Positions 14,325 through 52,685 of a stretch of 64,000 nucleotides of DNA are shown piece by piece. Below the pieces are notes generated by a model. It was not told where the DNA came from, ran no database searches, and saw only the letters and a list, made by a program, of their open reading frames with translations. Source of the DNA: Bryobacteraceae bacterium CoA2 C42. Its GTDB lineage: Bacteria > Acidobacteriota > Terriglobia > Bryobacterales > Bryobacteraceae. The DNA lies in contig JAINDL010000045.1 of assembly GCA_019931245.1 (NCBI GenBank), positions 1 through 64,000 on the forward strand. The letters are read 5' to 3'. Each line of letters starts with the position of its first letter. Position 1 is the first letter of the stretch. The position numbers and the translations under genes were made by a program.

Positions 14325-15128
14325 ATGCGCTCTTTCAGATATGCCAATCGTCCGGGAGGATCTATTTTTTGGGGCACTCTCCACGTACCATGGAGTAAGG
14401 AGCACCTGCTGCCCAACCTCTACGGAAAAGTCATCCTGGTCACCGGCGCCGCCAAACGCATCGGTAGATCCATCGCCCTCCGCCTCGCCCGCGAAGGCGC
14501 CCAGGTCGCCTTGCACTACCACTCCTCGGCAAGCGAAGCCCGCGAAACCGCCCGGGAGTGCGGCGGAGTTCCTGTCTTTGCCGCCAACCTCGAAAAGGTA
14601 TCGGAAATCGAGGCCCTGTTCGCCGCCGTCGACCGCCATTTCGGCCGTCTCGACGGCCTCGTCAATAACGCCGCCCGCTTCACCCGTCTCGATCCCCTCG
14701 AGATGACCGAGGCCGACTGGGACTTCATCCATAACGTCAACCTTAAGGCGACCTTCTTTTGCTGCCGCGAAGCAGGCCGCCGCATGAAAGCACAGGGCCA
14801 CGGTCGAATCGTCAACATCAGCTCCCTTGGCGGCCTCCGCCCCTGGGCCGATCATGCCCACTACTGCGCTTCGAAAGCCGGTGTCATCATGCTGACCCAA
14901 TCCCTCGCCAAGAGCTTCGGTCCAGGCGTCACCGTCAACTCCGTCGCCCCCGGCGTCATTCCGTTTGGGGAAACCATTCCGGGCCTGGACGGTATGATCC
15001 GGTCGACGCCCGCCGGCCGCCCCGGCACTGGCGACGAAATCGCCGATGCCGTCAGCTATCTCCTGTCCGCCAGCGATTTCCTCACCGGCCAGGTCCTGGC
15101 CGTCGATGGGGGACTCAGCCTCCGATAA
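14325..15128 (+). CDS. SDR family oxidoreductase (FabG/pteridine-reductase-like)
   Basis: Short-chain dehydrogenase/reductase. The Rossmann glycine motif is TGAAKRIG, with RIG as in pteridine/dihydromonapterin reductases; then VNNAARF (structural NNAG-like motif), the catalytic Ser in NISSLGG, YCASK (catalytic Tyr and Lys), and a C-terminal LTGQVLAVDGG. NADPH use is suggested by the Arg after the glycine motif. The start is unclear. ATG 14325 is the nearest standard start to the domain, but CTG 14409 has a good TAAGGAG (14396-14402) and would begin just before LPNLYGKVILVTG, where SDR proteins usually begin. It is followed after two bases by a TolC-like gene. The substrate is unknown. Confidence 0.85.
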   Translation: MRSFRYANRPGGSIFWGTLHVPWSKEHLLPNLYGKVILVTGAAKRIGRSIALRLAREGAQVALHYHSSASEARETARECGGVPVFAANLEKVSEIEALFAAVDRHFGRLDGLVNNAARFTRLDPLEMTEADWDFIHNVNLKATFFCCREAGRRMKAQGHGRIVNISSLGGLRPWADHAHYCASKAGVIMLTQSLAKSFGPGVTVNSVAPGVIPFGETIPGLDGMIRSTPAGRPGTGDEIADAVSYLLSASDFLTGQVLAVDGGLSLR

Positions 15129-15130
15129 CC

Positions 15131-16405
15131 ATGCGCCTTCTTCCTGTCCTGCTCCTCGCCTTCGCCGTCCACGCTGAAATCCGCCCCATGACCTTCAAGG
15201 CCGTTCTCGAAACGGCCCTGGCGCAGAACCCCGACCTCGCCCTCGCCCGTCTCGACGAACGCAAAGCCGCCGAAACTGTCCGGGCCGCGCGCGACCCGTT
15301 CGCCCCCAGCGCCTTCGTCGGCAGCGGACTTGCCTACTCGAGCGGTTTTCCCATGAGCATGGAGGGTTCGGCCCCGTCCATCGTCGAGGCCCGCGCCATC
15401 GCCAGCATCTTCAACCGCCCTCAGCGCCTCCTGATTGAAAAGAGCCGCCAGGACGAGCAAACGGCCAGGATCTCCAGCGAAGAACGCCGCGAATCGGTGG
15501 GCTACCGTGCCGCGGCCCTCTACGTCGAGGCGGGCCGGATCGCTGAAGCCGCTAAGACCGTCAGTCAGCAGATCGCCAGCTTGGAGAGCCTGCTGAGCAA
15601 CGTCAAGATCCGCATCGAGGCGGGCAGGGAACTGCCGCTCGAAGAGAAACGCGCCCGCCTCAAACTCGCCCAGGCCAAACAGCGCCAGCAGCGCCTCGAG
15701 TTCGATCGCGAGGCGGCTGAAACCGACCTCGCCCTGCTTCTCGGCCTTGCTCCCACCGACCGCGTCCAGCCTCTCGAGCCCGAACGGAGCGTCCCCGCCA
15801 TCATCGACAGCGAGACCGATGCGGTCACCAACGCGCTACGCAACTCCCGCGAACTCCAGCGGCTCGATTCTCAACTCAAAGCCAAAGCCCTCGAACTCCG
15901 CAGCCACGACGCGGCCCGCCTGCCCACCTTCGACCTTGTGGCCCAGTACGGCCGTTTTGCCCGGTTCAACAACTACGACAAGTTCTTTAACCGCTTTGCC
16001 GCCAATAACGCCCAGGTCGGCATGTCCTTCCGCATTCCCCTGGTTCCCTCGCTGGCCAGTCGCGCGCAAAAAAACATCGCCTCGGCCGACATTGTCGCCC
16101 TGCGCACCCAGGTCACCTCCGCGCGCGGCCGCATCGCGGTCGGCGCCCGGCGCGCCTGGCAGTTCGTCGCCCAGCAGCAGTTGAGCGCCGAGGTGGCTAA
16201 ACTTGACCTCGAAGTCGCCCGGGATCAGGTCTCCCAACTTCTCGCTCTCTTTGAGGAGGGCCGCGTCCCGTTCCGCCAGCTCGAAGAGGCCCGCATCCAG
16301 GAGAGCGAAAAATGGATGGCGCTGTTCGACGCCCGCTACGCCCTCGATCGCGCCCGTCTTGATCTGCTTCGCGAAACCGGCAACGTGCTGGCGCTCCTGC
16401 GCTGA
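15131..16405 (+). CDS. TolC-family outer-membrane protein
   Basis: Exported protein of 424 aa with a signal peptide at 1-15 (LLLAFAVHA) and the two-fold alpha-helical hairpin pattern of outer-membrane efflux proteins: MTFKAVLETALAQNPDLALARLDERKAAE at the N-terminus, and long Ala/Glu/Arg-rich helices at about 105-190 and 310-420 interrupted by short beta-strand segments. It forms the outer-membrane duct of a type I secretion or efflux system in this family. No inner-membrane pump or adaptor lies beside it, in contrast to the TolC-like gene at 35138. It starts two bases after the SDR stop codon, so the two are co-transcribed. Its partner is probably encoded elsewhere. Confidence 0.85.
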   Translation: MRLLPVLLLAFAVHAEIRPMTFKAVLETALAQNPDLALARLDERKAAETVRAARDPFAPSAFVGSGLAYSSGFPMSMEGSAPSIVEARAIASIFNRPQRLLIEKSRQDEQTARISSEERRESVGYRAAALYVEAGRIAEAAKTVSQQIASLESLLSNVKIRIEAGRELPLEEKRARLKLAQAKQRQQRLEFDREAAETDLALLLGLAPTDRVQPLEPERSVPAIIDSETDAVTNALRNSRELQRLDSQLKAKALELRSHDAARLPTFDLVAQYGRFARFNNYDKFFNRFAANNAQVGMSFRIPLVPSLASRAQKNIASADIVALRTQVTSARGRIAVGARRAWQFVAQQQLSAEVAKLDLEVARDQVSQLLALFEEGRVPFRQLEEARIQESEKWMALFDARYALDRARLDLLRETGNVLALLR

Positions 16406-19946: not shown

Positions 19947-22262
19947 ATGCCCAACCGTTTTGTCACCGTTTTCATCCTTACTCTCTCCCTGCTGCTGAAT
20001 TCCTGCCTGAGCGACCCGGAATCTCGCAAGAAGAAATTTCTCGCCAACGGCAACAAGTACTACGAAAAGGCGAAGTTTCGCGAAGCCTCGATCATGTTTC
20101 GCAACGCCCTCAAAGAGGACGCCCGCTTCGGAGAGGCGTACTACCGGCTGGCTCTGACGTCGGTAAAGCTGGGTCAGTACGGTGATGCCTTGAACGCATT
20201 CCAGCGGGCGGTCGAGTTACAGCCGGATAACCTCGATGCCTTCCGGCAGCTGACGGATCTTTACATGGCGGCCTACTCGGCCAATCCGAAGAAGTTCAGC
20301 AATATTCTGAAGGAGGTGCAGGATCTGGCGGACCGCTTCAAGAAGACCCATCCCTCCTCGTTTGAGTACTTGCGGTTGCAGGGAATGCTGCAGCAGGTTG
20401 GGAATAAGCCGCAGGAGGCTCTTGACAGCTACCTTGCCGCCGACAAAGTGAAGGCGAACGACCCGGACATTCAATACGCGATTGCGACCTGCTACATTGC
20501 GTTGAACCGCGTGCCGGAGGCCGAGGAGTTGCTGAAGAAGCTGACCGTAAGCGCCAAGCAGTATCTCCGCGGCTACGACCTGCTCTACGGACTGTATGCC
20601 CGGACGGGAAAGATTCCTGAAGCTGAACAGGTGGCCAAGCAACGAATGGAGTCCAATCCGACTCTGTCGCAGGCTTACCTGGCGCTGGCGGCGCACTACG
20701 CCGGCTTACGCAACGAGGCCGCGATGACGGGGACGCTTGACGGCCTTCTCAAGAACAGCGATAAGATCACCACTGCCTACGAGGACGTGGGTTCGTTTTA
20801 CGCCAGGCTGGGCAAACACGACAAAGCGATTCAAACCTTTGAGGCCGGGCTGGCGAAGCTGTCCGATGAAACGCTCAAGAAGAACCTGCGTAAGGGAATT
20901 GTGGCCTCCTACGCGAGCCAGAACAAGCTGGCCGAAGCCCTCGCGGTGGTCGATGGCATGTTGAAGGCTGACGCCAAGGATCCCGATGCGCTGGCTTTGC
21001 GGGCGCATCTTTGGCTGATGGGCGGAGATCCGAAGAACCTGAACGCGGCGATCACCGATTTACAGTCGATCGTTTCCAAGAGACCGGAAAACCCGGTGCT
21101 GCGCTTCGACTTAGGGAATGCACTGCTCATTCGGGGTGAGTTTGAAGCAGCCAGGGTGCAATTGCTTGAGGCGATTAAACTGCGGCCCGACTTCTTCCCG
21201 GCGCGCAACTCTCTGGCACAACTGAGTTTGCAAAAGCAGGACTGGACCTCTGCGCTGCAACTGTCTCAGGAGGTGCTGTCGCAGGATCCCTCCAACATAT
21301 TCGGGTTGCTGGTGCGGTCGCATGCCCTGATGGCGACGAACGAGTTTGGCCAAGCCAAGGAGTTGCTTGAGAAAACGATCAAAGCTTATCCTGCGTCGCG
21401 CGACGCGCAGTACCAACTTGGTTACCTGCTCTTCCGGGAAAAGAATTTCAAGGCGGCCGAGGAGAGCTTTCGGCGACTCTACTTCTCCGAATTCCAGGAT
21501 TTGCGTGGCCTGATGGGATTGATGGAAAACTACATGGCGCAGAATCAGTATGATGCCGCCGCCAAGATGCTCGACGCGGAGATTGCCAAGTATCCCAAGG
21601 CGCTGGCTCTGCAAATTGCCCGCGGTACCGTTGCGGCGCGCGGCGGGCAGCACGGCGAGGCGGTAGAGGTTTTCCGGAAAGCGATCAAGGAACAGGATAA
21701 AGTTCCGGATCTGTACCTGCGCCTCGCCGAGGCGCAGCGGTTGGCAGGGGATGCGGGGGGTGCCTTGGAGTCGTGGAAGAAGGCCTCGGAGCTGGACCCG
21801 AATTTGATTGTTCCGCTGCTCAACCGGGCGACCACGCTGGATACCATGAAACGGCGGACCGAGGCCCGGCCGCTTTACGAGCAGGTCCTGAAGATCCAGC
21901 CGGACCAGGCCGTCGCTCTGAATAACCTTGCCTACCTGCTGGCGGAAGAGGGCACTGATCTCGACACGGCGCTGACGTTGGCGCAGCGGGCCAAGCAAAA
22001 GGCGCCAAACGATCCGATGATCTCCGACACGCTGGGTTGGATTTACATTAAGAAGGGCTTGGCCAATAATGCCCTGCCCATATTCACCGAGTTGACGGCT
22101 AAATTCCCGGCCGTGTCCACCTTCCACTACCATCTGGCGATGGCGCACTCTCAGCGCGGGGATAACGTACAGGCCAAGCGGGCTCTCGAAGCGGCACTCA
22201 AGGCCAATCCGCAGAAACAGGAATTGGAGGACATCAGGAAGTTGCAACAGAAGATAGGCTAG
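19947..22262 (+). CDS. TPR-repeat lipoprotein
   Basis: Lipoprotein of 771 aa. The N-terminus has a basic/hydrophobic leader and lipobox LLNSC, giving an acylated Cys at about residue 20. The remainder is tandem TPR helices throughout (for example YYRLALTSVKLGQYGDALNAF; the last ones ALNNLAYLLAEEGTDLDTAL and ISDTLGWIYIKKGLANNAL). The layout of a lipoprotein leader plus about twenty TPRs resembles the PEP-CTERM-system TPR lipoproteins, though it is somewhat shorter than those I know. It begins a long co-directional gene run, six bases before the haem-motif HEAT gene, followed by a CAAX-like protease. A role in assembling or exporting an envelope component is likely but not shown. Confidence 0.85.
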   Translation: MPNRFVTVFILTLSLLLNSCLSDPESRKKKFLANGNKYYEKAKFREASIMFRNALKEDARFGEAYYRLALTSVKLGQYGDALNAFQRAVELQPDNLDAFRQLTDLYMAAYSANPKKFSNILKEVQDLADRFKKTHPSSFEYLRLQGMLQQVGNKPQEALDSYLAADKVKANDPDIQYAIATCYIALNRVPEAEELLKKLTVSAKQYLRGYDLLYGLYARTGKIPEAEQVAKQRMESNPTLSQAYLALAAHYAGLRNEAAMTGTLDGLLKNSDKITTAYEDVGSFYARLGKHDKAIQTFEAGLAKLSDETLKKNLRKGIVASYASQNKLAEALAVVDGMLKADAKDPDALALRAHLWLMGGDPKNLNAAITDLQSIVSKRPENPVLRFDLGNALLIRGEFEAARVQLLEAIKLRPDFFPARNSLAQLSLQKQDWTSALQLSQEVLSQDPSNIFGLLVRSHALMATNEFGQAKELLEKTIKAYPASRDAQYQLGYLLFREKNFKAAEESFRRLYFSEFQDLRGLMGLMENYMAQNQYDAAAKMLDAEIAKYPKALALQIARGTVAARGGQHGEAVEVFRKAIKEQDKVPDLYLRLAEAQRLAGDAGGALESWKKASELDPNLIVPLLNRATTLDTMKRRTEARPLYEQVLKIQPDQAVALNNLAYLLAEEGTDLDTALTLAQRAKQKAPNDPMISDTLGWIYIKKGLANNALPIFTELTAKFPAVSTFHYHLAMAHSQRGDNVQAKRALEAALKANPQKQELEDIRKLQQKIG

Positions 22263-22268
22263 TAGGAT

Positions 22269-25250
22269 ATGCCTGTGCTGTTTGTGATGATACTGGCAGC
22301 GGTGGGCCTGGCGCCCGCCGCTGTTGTGCGTAAGGACCTGCTCGCCGGCCCGCAGTCCGTTCTCGTTTCGGTGCCCGCGCCCGGGCAACTGGGAGGCGAG
22401 ACGGTGCGGGTGGAACTGCGGCGGCGGGGTGAGGTGGTGCTCACCAAGCTCCTGCACGCTGGTGATGGCGATCTGTTCACCTATGTGGGGGCGGGGCAGG
22501 GAATGCGCTTGGAGGTGACCCATCCGGACGGAGTGGCCGTCCGGACGGTGCTGCGGTCGCTCGACCGGGCGCCGCAGGTTGAGAGCGAGCCGAATGATAG
22601 CTGGTCCTCCGCGACGCCGGTGGTCCTTGGCCGGCCCGTTGCCGCCTCGGGCGATGAGGCTCCCTACATTCCGCTCGGTGACAGCCGCCAGCAGGCCCCG
22701 GCCGAAGACTGGTTTCGCTTTGCGTTCCCGGCCGGGCCGCCGCAGCTACTGCACCTGGCGCTTGATGTGCCGGACCGGGATAACATTCCGGTGGATGTCA
22801 GTCTGCACCGGGTGGTGAACGGGAAGCTGGTGGAGTACTCCGAGGGCGAGGATCCAGTGGCCCTGCCGCATGAGGTCCAGGCGCTGCCGGGCAACAAGTT
22901 TACCACCCGGGTGCTGAGCCAGCCGGGCGCTTACTACATCCGCGTACGGATGTCGCATCCGGCCTACACCCTGATTACGCGGCTCTACCCGGCGCCGCCC
23001 TACGCCAAGCCGCAGGAGGCCGTGCAGGCCGCCATCGACTATCTGATCGGGGCCGGCGACTCCTGGCACGCCAACACCCCGCGCCGGGGCGGGGTCTACG
23101 ACCGGATTGCGACACCGCACCAGGAGACGACCCTGTGCGTGGCCTGTCATCCGACCCACTTCACGCTGCGGGCGCAACTCTACGCCAGCCGGCACGGCTA
23201 TGCTACGCACTATCCGCGGCAGCTTGCGTTTCTGGCCGAACGCTTCTACAACAACCCGCGGCCGCTTTACGGCTTTGAAAAAGAGGGCGCGGTCTGGTCC
23301 CGGGTGATCTCGGCTGGGGCGAACGTGCTCAGCCGCATGTCGCATCTGACTACACTTTACGAGCAGCAGGCCGGGGCGCCGCGGCGCGAGGATTTCCACC
23401 GCGGCGTGGGGGAGTATCTGCGTCTCTACTACCGGGACCGCACCAAGCTGCCCCCGGACGAGACGAACGGCAATACGCCGCTGGTATCCACCTATGAGGT
23501 GGCCTGGTATGCCTGGGAGAACACCCGGGACCCGCGCATCGCCGCGCTGCTTGAACAGGACGCGGTCAAGAATACGATCGATATGTGCTACCAGACGCTA
23601 GCGCTGGCGGCGATAGATCCGCGCAAACATCAGGCAAAGATTGCGGCCAACGCCGCCCGCCTGCTTGGGCTTCAGCGCGCCGATGGGCAGTGGTCGGCCA
23701 AACTGGAGCCGGAGTCGCTGCCGGTGGAATTCCAGACCGGCCATGCGCTCTGGACGCTGGCCGCGGCCGGGGTGCCGGTCTCGCATCCGCAGGTGCAGAA
23801 GGGACTGCAGTTTCTGCTCAAGCGGCAGCGGCCGTTTGGCGGCTGGCTCGATCCGCTGCAGACGTACGAGAACTTCCGGACGCCCTTTCGAGAAACGCAG
23901 ATGGCGGTTCTCGCCCTGAGCGCCTACTTTCCGCTGACCAAGCCCGCTCCCGCTCCTCGCCGCACGAAACCGAATCCGGACTTCCGGGCGCTCGGCGATG
24001 CGTCAAAGCTGGTCCAGCGCGAGACTGCGGCGCAGGTCCGGCAGCTCTACAGCGAGTACCCTGCTACCTCGGCGCAGCCGCTGCTCGATGCTCTGGCCTC
24101 GCCCGACGAGCGGACGCGTTGGGGCGCGACGCGGGTGTTTGCGTCGCACTTTGCGGCCCTGGCCCGGCGGCCGGAGTTTGCCGCGCCCCTTGCGAGGCTC
24201 CTGGGCGACCCGGCGCCCGCCGTCCGTTTGCAGGCCGCCAAGGCGCTGTGGCAGTTCTGGTTCTGGTCGCCGGACGCGGCCGCGCGCGAGACGATTGAAG
24301 ACGCGTTGCTGGCCGCGCTGGCCGAGCCGCAGCACCCCTGGATCGACCGGGCGCTGCGGGAGGCCGTCTACAACCTGGCCGATGAGAACATCCGCTATCT
24401 GTACAACAACTGGGTTCCCGGCCTCGCGCGTCCGGCGGACCGGGAACAGGTGGTGCGGGGCCGGCTGGCCGTGGAAGACCGGCTGTCCCGCAAGTTTGCA
24501 CGCGTGCTGGAGCAGGGTACGCTTCGGCAGAAAAAGACGCTGTTAACCGGGCTCACGGAGTTTGAACTGCGGCGCGGAGACGTCTACGACCCTACGGCTG
24601 ATCACACGACGCCCTTTCCGCCCGTCTATAACCGCATCGGCAACGATGTCGAACAGATTGTCTTCTTCGGCGAGGCAAACGACCGGCTGGCGCGCGCGCT
24701 GCTGCCGCTGCTGGACCATCCGGAGTTGGGTTCGCTGGCCCGCGGCGCTTCGATCATTCTGCGGGATGTGAACTTCGGCGAGGCGGCGCGGCTGGCCGGT
24801 CCGCTCGTTGGCGATCGGGAGCCGATCGTCAGGAAACTGCTCAGCGAACTGCCCGCGCAGCTGCCGAATCTGCAGGCGTGGGGGCGCGCTCCGGCGGCGC
24901 CGCGCAAGCCGGGCGCTCCCCGCGCCACCGCCACCGGGGCCCGGCCCGATGACGATTACTTCCGCGGCTACGTCGAGCCCATCCTCACCACGCGGGGTAA
25001 GGATGGGCAGGCCTGCGTGCACTGCCACGCTTCGCACACGCAGTTCAACGCGACGTTAACCACGGCTCGGAACGTGATCAATCTCGAAGATCCCGAGCAG
25101 AGTCTGATTCTGCTCAAGCCGATCTCCGATGCCGAGAGCGAAGGAACGCTCGGCGCGAAGAAACTGGCTCATGGCGGGGGAGTCCGTTTTGAAAAGGGCT
25201 CGCCCGAATACAACACCATCCTGAATTGGATCCGGGGGACCAAGCCTTGA
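22269..25250 (+). CDS. Large exported protein with two haem c motifs and HEAT-like repeats
   Basis: Protein of 993 aa with a signal peptide at 1-19. Residues about 20-235 form two beta-rich, pre-peptidase-like units (VESEPNDSWSSATPV, then DWFRFAFPAG). A CxxCH haem motif stands at 290-294 (CVACH). The middle part (about 330-560) has alpha/alpha-toroid features of terpene-cyclase or prenyltransferase-like folds (RLLGLQRADGQWSAK, FQTGHALWTLAAAG). Residues about 575-800 look like HEAT repeats. A second CxxCH motif stands at 916-920 (CVHCH), followed by NLEDPEQSLILLKP, as in Planctomycete cytochrome-like domains. It is probably periplasmic and redox-active. I know no characterised protein with this order. 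It lies between the TPR lipoprotein (six bases) and the CPBP protease (TTGA overlap). Confidence 0.8.
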   Translation: MPVLFVMILAAVGLAPAAVVRKDLLAGPQSVLVSVPAPGQLGGETVRVELRRRGEVVLTKLLHAGDGDLFTYVGAGQGMRLEVTHPDGVAVRTVLRSLDRAPQVESEPNDSWSSATPVVLGRPVAASGDEAPYIPLGDSRQQAPAEDWFRFAFPAGPPQLLHLALDVPDRDNIPVDVSLHRVVNGKLVEYSEGEDPVALPHEVQALPGNKFTTRVLSQPGAYYIRVRMSHPAYTLITRLYPAPPYAKPQEAVQAAIDYLIGAGDSWHANTPRRGGVYDRIATPHQETTLCVACHPTHFTLRAQLYASRHGYATHYPRQLAFLAERFYNNPRPLYGFEKEGAVWSRVISAGANVLSRMSHLTTLYEQQAGAPRREDFHRGVGEYLRLYYRDRTKLPPDETNGNTPLVSTYEVAWYAWENTRDPRIAALLEQDAVKNTIDMCYQTLALAAIDPRKHQAKIAANAARLLGLQRADGQWSAKLEPESLPVEFQTGHALWTLAAAGVPVSHPQVQKGLQFLLKRQRPFGGWLDPLQTYENFRTPFRETQMAVLALSAYFPLTKPAPAPRRTKPNPDFRALGDASKLVQRETAAQVRQLYSEYPATSAQPLLDALASPDERTRWGATRVFASHFAALARRPEFAAPLARLLGDPAPAVRLQAAKALWQFWFWSPDAAARETIEDALLAALAEPQHPWIDRALREAVYNLADENIRYLYNNWVPGLARPADREQVVRGRLAVEDRLSRKFARVLEQGTLRQKKTLLTGLTEFELRRGDVYDPTADHTTPFPPVYNRIGNDVEQIVFFGEANDRLARALLPLLDHPELGSLARGASIILRDVNFGEAARLAGPLVGDREPIVRKLLSELPAQLPNLQAWGRAPAAPRKPGAPRATATGARPDDDYFRGYVEPILTTRGKDGQACVHCHASHTQFNATLTTARNVINLEDPEQSLILLKPISDAESEGTLGAKKLAHGGGVRFEKGSPEYNTILNWIRGTKP

Positions 25251-25912
25251 GGAATCACCCTGCCATTCCCTATGTCGCGCCGTTTGCGGCATTTCTGCTG
25301 CTGCTGATGGCCGCGCCTTACTGGCCGTGGGACCCCCGCTGGGAGCAGTACTGCCGCGTGGTGGTGCTGGCGGTGATCGTCTGGTTTTTCTCGCGGAAGG
25401 TGGTCGACTTCCGGTGTGCGGCGCCGGTGGGAAGCATTGCGGTGGGGGTGGTCGTCTGGCTCCTCTGGATTGCTCCCGATACGCTGATTCCGGGATACCG
25501 GCAGCATTGGTTGTTTACCAACTCGCTCACCGGTCAGCTGTCGAGTTCGATTCCTCCCGAGGCGCTCGGTTCGACCGCCGTGCTCGTGTTCCGGACGCTG
25601 CGGGCGGCGATTCTCGTACCCATCCTCGAAGAGCTGTTCTGGCGGGGCTGGATGATGCGCTGGCTCATCAATCCGGACTTCACCAGCCTTCCGCTGGGCG
25701 CCTACTCGCTCTCGTCGGTGCTGATCACGGCGGTGCTGTTCGCCTCCGAACACGGGCCTTTCTGGGAGGTCGGTCTACTGACCGGGGTCATCTACAACCT
25801 CTGGATGGTGAAAACCAGGCGATTGGGTGATCTCATCCTGGCGCACGGGGTGACGAACCTTTGCCTGTCGCTCTACACCATCGCCACGGGACGCTGGGAA
25901 TACTGGATGTAG
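25247..25912 (+). CDS. CPBP/CAAX-like intramembrane protease
   Basis: Integral membrane protein of 221 aa with about seven hydrophobic helices. The glutamate motif EELFWRG (E128, E129), the second motif SEHGPFW (H169) and the third LAHGVTN (H200, N204) are the catalytic signature of CPBP (Abi/Rce1-like) glutamic endopeptidases. It resembles the CAAX-protease-related family reported near exosortase and EPS loci (TIGR03008 as I recall it). The TTG start at 25247 overlaps the TGA of the upstream gene and has GGGGGA before it. Together with the TPR lipoprotein it suggests an envelope-processing function; no exosortase gene is in the window. Confidence 0.85.
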   Translation: MRNHPAIPYVAPFAAFLLLLMAAPYWPWDPRWEQYCRVVVLAVIVWFFSRKVVDFRCAAPVGSIAVGVVVWLLWIAPDTLIPGYRQHWLFTNSLTGQLSSSIPPEALGSTAVLVFRTLRAAILVPILEELFWRGWMMRWLINPDFTSLPLGAYSLSSVLITAVLFASEHGPFWEVGLLTGVIYNLWMVKTRRLGDLILAHGVTNLCLSLYTIATGRWEYWM

Positions 25913-25913
25913 C

Positions 25914-26333
25914 TTGAAGGTTTTTGTCTACTTCATCGGGAAGGTGCGCGATCAGCACGCCCAGGCGCTGACCGAGGAGTATCTGAAGCGCACCTCGCGC
26001 TATGCACCGGCCCAAGCGCGGGAGGTCAAGCCGGAGGCGCTCGACTTTGTCGACCGGCATCCTTCGGCGTACAAGATCTTTCTCGATCCGGCGGGCAAGC
26101 AGTTGCCTTCGCCGAACTTTGCGGCGCTGGTCGGGAAGCTCGAGGACGAGGGGCGCGACTTGCTGTTCCTGCTCGGGGGGCACGACGGGTTGACCGATGC
26201 GCAGCGGGCACGGGCGGACCTCCTGCTGTCGCTCAGCCTGATGACCTGGCCGCATGAACTGGCGCGCGCCATGCTGGCCGAACAGATCTACCGGGCCTTC
26301 GCCACGTTGCGGGGCCATCCGTACCCGCGCTAA
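25914..26333 (+). CDS. rlmH: 23S rRNA (pseudouridine1915-N3)-methyltransferase RlmH
   Basis: SPOUT-class methyltransferase of 139 aa that methylates pseudouridine 1915 in helix 69 of 23S rRNA. It is of standard length and carries the signature LLGGHDGL (SAM-binding knot), LSLSLMTWPHELARAMLAEQIYRAF, and ends GHPYPR, close to the usual GxPYH ending. The start is TTG at 25914, placed one base after the upstream TAG; MKVFVYFIGKV is the expected N-terminus of the family. Its position directly behind the CPBP protease and ahead of accD suggests co-transcription with both. Confidence 0.95.
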   Translation: MKVFVYFIGKVRDQHAQALTEEYLKRTSRYAPAQAREVKPEALDFVDRHPSAYKIFLDPAGKQLPSPNFAALVGKLEDEGRDLLFLLGGHDGLTDAQRARADLLLSLSLMTWPHELARAMLAEQIYRAFATLRGHPYPR

Positions 26334-26344
26334 CCTAAGGGCTA

Positions 26345-27205
26345 ATGTCCTGGTGGACCCGTAAGACCCCGAGCGTTACGACCGAGCCCGAAGACGAACG
26401 CAAACTGAAAACCGAAGGGCTGTGGGAGAAGTGTGACGGCTGCGGCCAGATCATCTGGAAGAGGGAACTTGAAGAGAACCTGTCGGTGTGCACGCAGTGC
26501 GGCTTTCACTGCAAGCTGAACGCCGAGGAGCGGCTGAACCTGTTATTTGACGATGGGCAGTGGCAGGAACTGGATGCTACGCTCCGTTCGACCGACCCGT
26601 TGCACTTTGTCGACTCGAAACCCTACGCCAGCCGGATGGCCGGCATGGCGAAAACCACCGGGCATCGGGACTCGCTCATCGCGGCGGTGGGCACCATCAA
26701 GGGCCGCCGTGTGCACTGCTGTGCGTTCAATATGAAGTTCATCGGCGGCAGCATGGGTGCAGTCGTGGGCGAAAAGATTGTGCGCGCCATTGAACGCTGC
26801 CTGGCCGAACGGACCCCGCTGCTGATTGTTTCGGCTTCGGGCGGCGCCCGCATGCAGGAGGGCGCCGTCAGCCTGATGCAGATGGCCCGGACCTCGGCCG
26901 CGCTGATGAAACTCGACGAAGCCGGTCTGCCGTTTATCAGCCTGTTGACCGATCCCACCACGGGTGGGGTCACCGCTTCGTTTGCCATGCTCGGCGACCT
27001 GAACATCGGCGAACCTGGCGCTCTGATCGGCTTTGCCGGGCCGCGCGTCATCGAACAGACCATTCGCCAGAAGTTGCCGCCGGGGTTCCAGCGCTCGGAG
27101 TTCCTGGTTGAGAAAGGCTTTCTCGACGCGGTGGTCAAGCGCAGTGACTTACGCGATTTTCTCGCCAACGCCTTCGACTTCTTTCTCGGCCCCGTAGCCC
27201 GTTAA
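26345..27205 (+). CDS. accD: Acetyl-CoA carboxylase carboxyltransferase subunit beta
   Basis: Protein of 286 aa, the beta half of the carboxyltransferase that transfers CO2 from carboxybiotin to acetyl-CoA in the first step of fatty-acid synthesis. The N-terminal four-Cys zinc ribbon is intact (C30, C33, C49, C52). The crotonase-like core follows with FIGGSMGAVVGEKIVRA, SASGGARMQEG (oxyanion-hole glycines), TGGVTASFAMLGD and GPRVIEQTIRQKLP. It has normal length. accA is not in the window. It lies 11 bp behind rlmH. Confidence 0.97.
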   Translation: MSWWTRKTPSVTTEPEDERKLKTEGLWEKCDGCGQIIWKRELEENLSVCTQCGFHCKLNAEERLNLLFDDGQWQELDATLRSTDPLHFVDSKPYASRMAGMAKTTGHRDSLIAAVGTIKGRRVHCCAFNMKFIGGSMGAVVGEKIVRAIERCLAERTPLLIVSASGGARMQEGAVSLMQMARTSAALMKLDEAGLPFISLLTDPTTGGVTASFAMLGDLNIGEPGALIGFAGPRVIEQTIRQKLPPGFQRSEFLVEKGFLDAVVKRSDLRDFLANAFDFFLGPVAR

Positions 27206-51455: not shown

Positions 51456-52685
51456 TTGGCCATCACTGCCATCCTGTGTGCCCTCCTGCTGACCAACGCA
51501 GACTGGATCGCTGAAGCCAGAGCGCGCAAAGCCAAGGGCGATGCCGCGGGAGCTTTGGACGCCTTCAGCCAGGCGGCGCGGAGCAGTCCACAGCCAGCCT
51601 GGGTCTATGACGAAATGGGCTTCCTGCTCGCCGTGTTGCGGCGCCCGGACGAGGCCATCAAACACTTTGAACAGGCCGTCGGCCTCGATCCACGCCTCGC
51701 CATCGGCCACTATCACCTCGCCGTGGCAAGATGGCTGCGACAGGATCGCGACGCGGCGGTGGCGAGTCTGCAGCGCGCCGTCACCTTGGAGCCCGGCAAT
51801 GCGGAGTACCGCTACCGCCTCGCGGGAATGCTCCACGAGACCGGTCAGTTGGACCTCGCGGCCGAACAGGCCGAACGCAGCACCCGCCTCGGGCCGAAAC
51901 GGGCCGAGGCGTGGAATCAACTCGGCGCGATCGAACAGGCCCGGAATCGAAACCCCGCTGCCCGCAATGCCTACGAGCGCGCGGTAGCGCTCCGTCCGGA
52001 AGATCACGACTTCCGCAACAATCTCGGATTGATGCTCGTAGAGACCGGCGACGCGGTGCGCGGCATCGCCGAATTCGAACGGATTCTGCAGCGGACTCCC
52101 GGCGATCGCGGCGCCCGGATCAACATCGCCTTCGCCTTGCTGCAGAAAGGGGACTACGACGCCGCCTTGCCGCGGCTGCGCCAATTAACCCTCGATTTTC
52201 CCGAGATGGCGTTAGTGCACTATAACCTGGGCCTCGCGTTGAAGCAGAAGGACGAACTCACCGAGGCCCGAAAGGAATTTCGCGAAGCGCTGCGGCTCCA
52301 GCCAGACATGGCGGAGGCGTATTACACCTTGGGAATCACGGCCTGGCAGGAAGGCGAGTTCGATGACACCATCGCGGCCATGCGCGGCGCCGTGGAGCAA
52401 CGGCCGAACTACGGTGCGGCTTACTACATGTTGGGGACGGCCTTGAAGCAGAAGGGGGACCTGGAGGGGGCAGCCAAGGCCCTGCAGGAAGCGATCCGGC
52501 TGGACCCGACCACGCCGGGGCCATTCAACATGCTGGCGCAGGTGCGGCAGCAGCAGGGAGAAGCCGGGGCGGCGCGGGAGTTGTTTGCCAAGGCGGCCGC
52601 GGTGAAGAAGAAGCTCGAAGCCGATCAGGTCAGACGGTTATCGACGATGGGCGCGGGAGGAGCCGCCCTGCCCTCACGCCGGTGA
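51456..52685 (+). CDS. TPR-repeat protein, partner of CRTAC1 protein
   Basis: Protein of 409 aa built almost wholly of TPR motifs (for example YDEMGFLLAVLRRPDEAIKHFEQAVGLDP, NNLGLMLVETGDAVRGIAEFERIL, YNLGLALKQKDELTEARKEFREALRLQP), about nine to ten repeats. The first residues (MAITAILCALLLTNADW) make a short hydrophobic leader that may be a signal peptide. The start is TTG at 51456 with GGAG some distance upstream; no ATG is available without losing the leader. Its 3' end overlaps the 3' end of the CRTAC1 gene by 12 bp. TPR and CRTAC1 genes are commonly neighbours in acidobacteria and planctomycetes; the joint function is unknown. Confidence 0.88.
   Translation: MAITAILCALLLTNADWIAEARARKAKGDAAGALDAFSQAARSSPQPAWVYDEMGFLLAVLRRPDEAIKHFEQAVGLDPRLAIGHYHLAVARWLRQDRDAAVASLQRAVTLEPGNAEYRYRLAGMLHETGQLDLAAEQAERSTRLGPKRAEAWNQLGAIEQARNRNPAARNAYERAVALRPEDHDFRNNLGLMLVETGDAVRGIAEFERILQRTPGDRGARINIAFALLQKGDYDAALPRLRQLTLDFPEMALVHYNLGLALKQKDELTEARKEFREALRLQPDMAEAYYTLGITAWQEGEFDDTIAAMRGAVEQRPNYGAAYYMLGTALKQKGDLEGAAKALQEAIRLDPTTPGPFNMLAQVRQQQGEAGAARELFAKAAAVKKKLEADQVRRLSTMGAGGAALPSRR

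Follow-up and report, generated by a model that had tools for sequence, protein, structure and literature searches.

Whether three closely packed genes, coding for a tetratricopeptide repeat (TPR) protein, a large protein with two CxxCH motifs and an intramembrane protease, form a single functional unit, and to which cellular system they belong, is the question raised by positions 19947–25912 of a 64,000-nucleotide window. By window we mean the whole stretch of DNA analysed, positions 1–64,000 (forward strand) of contig JAINDL010000045.1 of Bryobacteraceae bacterium CoA2 C42 (GCA_019931245.1; genome 6.07 Mb, 97.7% complete, 237 contigs). An earlier note on this DNA had read the three genes as one three-part envelope module. 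We favour, with a probability of about 0.6, an exosortase-linked operon of the TPR protein and the protease, a member of the CPBP family, that hosts an exported di-haem protein, here called HEATcyt, which probably works as a redox enzyme or relays electrons.

All three genes lie on the plus strand. The TPR protein (771 amino acids (aa), 19947–22262) begins with a hydrophobic stretch ending in LLLNSC, which resembles a lipobox. Six bases, TAGGAT, separate its gene from that of HEATcyt (993 aa, ATG start, 22269–25250), whose product has an N-terminal hydrophobic segment, two beta domains, a toroid with CVACH, a HEAT solenoid and a C-terminal domain with CVHCH. The last bases of the HEATcyt open reading frame (ORF), CCTTGA, contain the TTG start of the CPBP gene (25247–25912), giving a TTGA overlap; the longest ORF for the protease runs from the TTG at 25226. 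The ORF coordinates confirm the coupling described in the earlier note, and the export-like N-termini support its view that exported or membrane proteins are involved. Where HEATcyt and CPBP adjoin, the two are probably co-translated.

The protease scores 138.1 bits against TIGR03008 (pepcterm_CAAX), over the cut-off of 81.05, and resembles the PEP-CTERM-associated, CAAX prenyl protease-related family in score as well as in catalytic residues. FxxxH is a catalytic motif of CPBP proteases. Counting from the TTG at 25226, the catalytic-motif residues E135, E136, R140, H176, H207 and N211 are identical in 35/35 aligned sequences, and F172 is kept in 34 of the 35. EExxxR and HxxxN are given as CPBP catalytic motifs in PMC11980579, and are shared with myxosortase MrtX and its relatives, the CPBP-family sorting proteases of MYXO-CTERM proteins, which offer a works-like model for tail cleavage; unlike these, the window protein falls far under the cut-offs of the myxosortase core and MrtC models. 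Particular to the present case is the position of the CPBP gene, away from an exosortase and in a TPR–CPBP or TPR–HEATcyt–CPBP string.

The earlier note had reported that no exosortase is present, which is true of the window. The genome, however, encodes an exosortase adjoining EpsI on contig C51 (the pair at L032, 9065–10614, minus strand), and holds 13 PEP-CTERM matches, none of them on the contig of the window. The exosortase scores 239 bits against PF09721 and 195.3 against TIGR02602 (cut-off 105.55), and EpsI 102.8 against TIGR02914 (cut-off 42.8). No named exosortase subtype cut-off is passed; XrtA is nearest by margin (189.7 vs 208). The exosortase–EpsI pair lies downstream of a gene recognised by eye as pyruvate-kinase-like.

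With PrsT of the XrtA/PEP-CTERM system (TIGR02917), the TPR protein shares a TPR array and a lipoprotein-like N-terminus; Cys-20 follows the hydrophobic stretch, and a cysteine is similarly placed in many orthologues. At 266.1 bits it is the best TIGR02917 match of its genome, but it stays under the cut-off of 312.2, which no protein of the genome exceeds. Together with the TIGR03008 score, this match bears out the suggestion that the genes flanking HEATcyt are kin to PEP-CTERM/exosortase-associated families. Neither PrsK nor PrsR is found over cut-off in the genome (best 102.5 vs 300 and 416.3 vs 502.6 bits), and on these shortfalls, with that of PrsT and that of the exosortase against XrtA, we reject PrsT and a full XrtA/Prs system. 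Another TPR stretch of the window (51525–52493, plus strand) comes second in the genome against TIGR02917.

Among 61 relatives, TIGR03008 is over cut-off in 36, exosortase in 37 and PEP-CTERM in 41. TIGR03008 and exosortase occur together in 33 of these genomes, with TIGR03008 only in 3, exosortase only in 4 and neither in 21 (Fisher p = 1.5e-9); the corresponding counts over 31 genera are 16, 3, 4 and 8 (p = 0.007), both p-values being inflated by relatedness. TIGR03008 is confined to PEP-CTERM genomes: both are found in 36, TIGR03008 only in none, PEP-CTERM only in 5 and neither in 20, or 19, 0, 4 and 8 by genus (Fisher p = 6e-5, likewise inflated). Even so, in the sister family TIGR03008 is over cut-off in two genomes only, G032 and G053, and the same two alone have exosortase and PEP-CTERM.

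Single reading frames that carry both exosortase and CPBP parts are present in several genomes, and the two that were typed both pass the TIGR04162 cut-off for XrtE, the exosortase E/protease of the VPEID-CTERM system. The CPBP half of XrtE is of the TIGR03008 type, whereas the window protein is CPBP alone and scores 59.4 bits against the TIGR04162 cut-off of 150. The typed fusions are L146, 8066–9646 (plus strand), in the congener G017 and L144, 9950–11701 (minus strand), in G057, of the same class; both genomes also hold a separate exosortase, and G017 in addition a stand-alone TIGR03008 protein. Exosortase–CPBP fusions were noted in 2006 as 'Rosetta stones' in a passage of PMC1569441.

We turn now to HEATcyt. 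Its two motifs, CVACH (residues 290–294, codons at 23136–23150, plus strand) and CVHCH (residues 916–920, 25014–25028, plus strand), are both invariant in 31/31 aligned sequences, down to 40% identity, in respect of C290, C293 and H294 and of C916, C919 and H920. This alignment comprises the window and 30 of 38 loci, the remaining 8 being partial or broken; the C-terminal motif is also kept in 27/27 rows of a set extended to remoter partial matches. Neither motif is therefore a chance occurrence. The toroid contains many further invariant polar residues in the 31-row alignment, for example H267, R272, R273, W343, E398, N400, N402, H492 and R541.

An AlphaFold2 model of HEATcyt (mean predicted local distance difference test (pLDDT) 83.5, predicted template-modelling score (pTM) 0.83) places the beta domains at ∼18–97 and ∼124–241, the helical toroid at ∼245–557, HEAT-like helices at ∼572–871 and a small domain of low confidence at ∼895–993. 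The beta units, toroid, HEAT repeats and two CxxCH motifs that the earlier note had seen in this one chain, in an order that is indeed unusual, were recovered, except that the first CxxCH sits inside the toroid, in helix 285–307, and not before it. The predicted toroid matches oxidosqualene cyclase, drimenyl diphosphate synthase and squalene-hopene cyclase at Z ∼20; the nine best rows, at Z 19.8–21.0 over 259–316 residues, are all cyclases or terpene synthases (275 aligned residues and 3.5 Å against 1w6k). Because GH105 hydrolases and complement proteins come next, at Z 15–18, we regard this as a general alpha toroid fold. SQHop_cyclase_C and HEAT_2 match only weakly, just under their cut-offs. 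Unlike the cyclases whose toroid it resembles, HEATcyt stays under every family cut-off (30 vs 431.1 bits for TIGR01507, 25.6 vs 26.1 bits for PF13243) and has CxxCH, and cyclase function is not implied. Part of the model matches the collagen-binding domains of ColG/ColH (TMt 0.64–0.68); these we take to be of the pre-peptidase kind, and the match fits a pre-peptidase-like reading of the beta units. In a sequence-profile comparison, the HEAT region aligned with alphaRep and HEAT chains.

When modelled on their own, the C-terminal 111 residues reach a pLDDT of 76.5. The last ∼55 residues of HEATcyt are 53–62% identical to a segment of 850–920-aa proteins, of which the two typed (L190 in G036 and L193 in G032) are PSCyt2/PSD1 proteins (DUF1549/DUF1553); HEATcyt differs from these in having no PSCyt2 or PSD1 match. 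Both L190 and L193 proteins carry a nearby cysteine motif, CNGAACH or CNGKGCH, in place of CxxCH. Matches of the C-terminal domain to FoxE (Z 5.1 and 5.0, two of five chains compared; phmmer E 0.32) are too weak to use. Cytochrome c assembly proteins are encoded in the same genome. HEATcyt itself is unlikely to be a sorted substrate, as its C-terminus has no hydrophobic tail and the contig of the window has no PEP-CTERM match.

The domain architecture of HEATcyt recurs and is not unique to this protein. The source genome has a 1311-aa paralogue (L191, contig C153, 228–4160, plus strand) whose motifs are CMSCH and CLSCH and in which toroid, HEAT and haem motifs follow a similar order, and G028 has a 1629-aa one. 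Both are matched by SQHop_cyclase_C and HEAT families and weakly, over the first CxxCH, by Cytochrome_CBB3 (E 6e-4 and 2e-3, under cut-off). Elsewhere in the Acidobacteriota, HEATcyt relatives of 1211–1505 aa with two CxxCH were found at 5/5 loci fetched. At E 1e-40 HEATcyt matches occur in 40/150 genomes of the family, and a HEATcyt profile at 1e-30 finds 5/297 genomes of the phylum, the source genome included. Only weak matches were obtained in G013, which is 58% complete. In the metagenome-assembled genome G001, the HEATcyt gene (L046, 13506–16355, minus strand) is broken over three reading frames, through sequencing error or because the gene is decaying.

We then come to the arrangement of the genes in relatives. 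Within the genus, TPR, HEATcyt and CPBP are contiguous at 12/12 loci that have all three on one contig (the window, L033–L040, L044, L046 and L050), and HEATcyt adjoins CPBP at 18/18 loci at which the 3′ side is present (these 12 with L045, L048, L051, L150, L149 and one on contig C167 of G005). The earlier note had named two findings that would refute its proposal, a neighbourhood not conserved in relatives and CxxCH motifs not kept in orthologues, and neither was made. Outside the genus, HEATcyt adjoins CPBP at eight loci (L041, L112, L113, L114, L117, L118, L119 and L120), with no TPR gene found upstream at L041 and L119. Ten loci of the family, from 10 genera, have CPBP immediately after TPR with no HEATcyt between them (L133–L137, L139–L142 and L147), and 14 have HEATcyt, or at L130 and L131 a more distant relative, at a distance from CPBP (L042, L115, L116 and L121–L131). 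Two of these 14, L042 and L123, are on contigs that stop shortly past HEATcyt, but the over-cut-off CPBP of both genomes is on another contig. Five CPBP loci (L132, L138, L143, L145 and L148) have neither gene adjacent. HEATcyt is thus facultative, and the single three-part module fails as the main explanation on these 10 and 14 loci, the middle gene coming and going. Gene clustering at the stand-alone HEATcyt loci gave no recurring neighbour beyond close relatives, L130–L134 being covered in part.

As to history, CPBP adjacency requires three changes on the HEATcyt tree (40 rows), and HEATcyt presence five on the CPBP tree (35 rows). By inspection of the tree the latter figure is overstated by one, the change that arises from L149 having been labelled 'without HEATcyt'; the last codons of HEATcyt stand just upstream of its CPBP gene at the contig edge, and L149 therefore belongs with the loci that have it. 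In one genus (g19) the same locus occurs with HEATcyt in G123 and without it in G046. Insertion of HEATcyt between TPR and CPBP and its loss from there are both possible.

The surroundings of the three genes are also conserved. Upstream in the window are a TolC-like outer membrane efflux protein (14759–16405, plus strand), a neighbour kept in the genus that adjoins TPR in several other genera, and a 1151-aa beta-propeller protein with a Soli_cterm domain (TIGR03437; 16409–19864, plus strand), which lies upstream of TPR throughout the genus and at some loci in other genera. Downstream follows the housekeeping gene rlmH, of the SPOUT methyltransferase family (25914–26333, plus strand), kept in the genus and in genus g19, and after it an accD-like carboxyl transferase gene starting at 26345.

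We propose that the TPR lipoprotein and CPBP are an accessory pair of PEP-CTERM/exosortase surface sorting, with the genes for the exosortase, EpsI and the substrates at other sites of the genome. In this pair the TPR lipoprotein would serve as a periplasmic scaffold. CPBP, a predicted glutamic intramembrane protease whose catalytic motifs are intact, would act beside exosortase or after it and cut the membrane tails of exosortase substrates, on the model of myxosortase in Myxococcus (PMC11980579). HEATcyt, a member of an acidobacterial family, would be exported and bear two c-type haems, as predicted from its motifs: the first in the terpene-cyclase-like toroid with its many invariant polar residues, the second in the small C-terminal domain. 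In the periplasm or at the surface, it would most likely catalyse a redox reaction or relay electrons. HEATcyt may have joined the operon, or been retained in it, in some lineages, and, as it is absent at ten loci, is presumably dispensable for the TPR/CPBP pair. What the analysis shows is how the genes are arranged, how well they are kept, what they occur with, that HEATcyt is facultative and which fold it is predicted to have; a single transcript, haem attachment, cellular location, the CPBP substrate and the redox role are inferred.

Several observations weigh against this proposal. We know of no proof of what TIGR03008 proteins do, their link to exosortases being genomic. The co-occurrence reflects shared ancestry in part, most pair-bearing relatives being of one family, and it has exceptions of both kinds, TIGR03008 without detected exosortase (G042, G046 and G051) and exosortase without TIGR03008 (G041, G044, G049 and G060). 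Apart from the fusions, no exosortase stands at the CPBP loci fetched. Foldseek found no significant match in the PDB for the C-terminal domain of HEATcyt, and its cytochrome nature is therefore read from CxxCH; no cytochrome family of Pfam or NCBIfam matches HEATcyt. Moreover, HEATcyt–CPBP adjacency recurs at ∼53–60% identity, and in the window the two genes overlap, so that a functional tie between them may yet exist.

One alternative is that the three proteins are a true module after all, HEATcyt being a dedicated partner of CPBP and TPR that the loci now without it have lost; it might, for instance, be required for redox or structural reasons when a surface structure is sorted or assembled. 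The unbroken contiguity within the genus (12/12, and 18/18 for HEATcyt–CPBP where testable) would be expected of such a module, as would the mere three label changes on the HEATcyt tree, in which the CPBP-adjacent rows lie in separate parts. The TPR/CPBP junction of G046, AGGAACAAAGCG-TTGATCAA against AGGAACGAAGCC-TTGATCAA in G123, resembles a remnant of the last codons of HEATcyt, but may also be just a conserved ribosome-binding site of CPBP. With pair and HEATcyt found apart so often, in G045 with both arrangements at separate places, and with a HEATcyt relative of 40% identity in G037, a genome without exosortase or PEP-CTERM matches, we consider this explanation unlikely. CPBP proteases have varied roles, and the string could instead be a chance operon that shares nothing but transcription, its CPBP acting on something unrelated to exosortase, such as lipoprotein or peptide processing. 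The distance of TIGR03008 genes from exosortase, and the three genomes in which none was detected, would be natural on that account; the presence of TIGR03008 in PEP-CTERM genomes in 36 cases out of 36 and in 0/20 genomes without PEP-CTERM would not, nor would the survival of TPR–CPBP adjacency in 10 genera or the fusions described as 'Rosetta stones' in the cited passage of PMC1569441, and we hold it to be improbable.

The remaining doubt concerns the chemistry of HEATcyt, which could be a structural or binding protein whose toroid and HEAT repeats bind a polymer or partner, the CxxCH motifs binding metal or forming disulphides. The unmatched C-terminal domain leaves room for this, and the toroid and beta domains are also like carbohydrate-acting and collagen-binding folds. 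Two exact CxxCH motifs, invariant throughout the alignment, argue the other way, given that the protein appears to be exported and that its genome encodes cytochrome c assembly proteins. So do the sub-cut-off Cytochrome_CBB3 matches of the paralogues, and a HEATcyt free of redox chemistry seems to us improbable as well. We therefore retain the exosortase-linked TPR/CPBP operon with a di-haem guest. A bolder form of it, which we think rather unlikely, would make HEATcyt an exported haem enzyme of a new class, in which a terpene-cyclase-like toroid has acquired a c-type haem at its mouth and receives electrons via the HEAT arm and the second haem domain. Such an enzyme would modify surface polymers or sorted surface proteins, and in part of the Bryobacteraceae would have been recruited as partner of an exosortase-linked intramembrane protease.

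In the open-licence literature we found no paper on exosortase together with PEP-CTERM in Acidobacteria or on exosortase in Solibacter, and nothing on HEATcyt among the papers listed; a term search of PMC5900883 returned neither exosortase nor PEP-CTERM. The TPR/CPBP gene pair is of a known kind, and what is new is the presence in it, in part of the family only, of the toroid/HEAT protein with two CxxCH motifs. The TPR–CPBP pair, which occurs both with HEATcyt and without it in a lineage where exosortase–CPBP fusions are also found, offers natural comparisons for testing the role of TIGR03008. HEATcyt itself represents a conserved, uncharacterised two-CxxCH family; should haem indeed be attached to its toroid, this would be an unusual place for a c-type haem.

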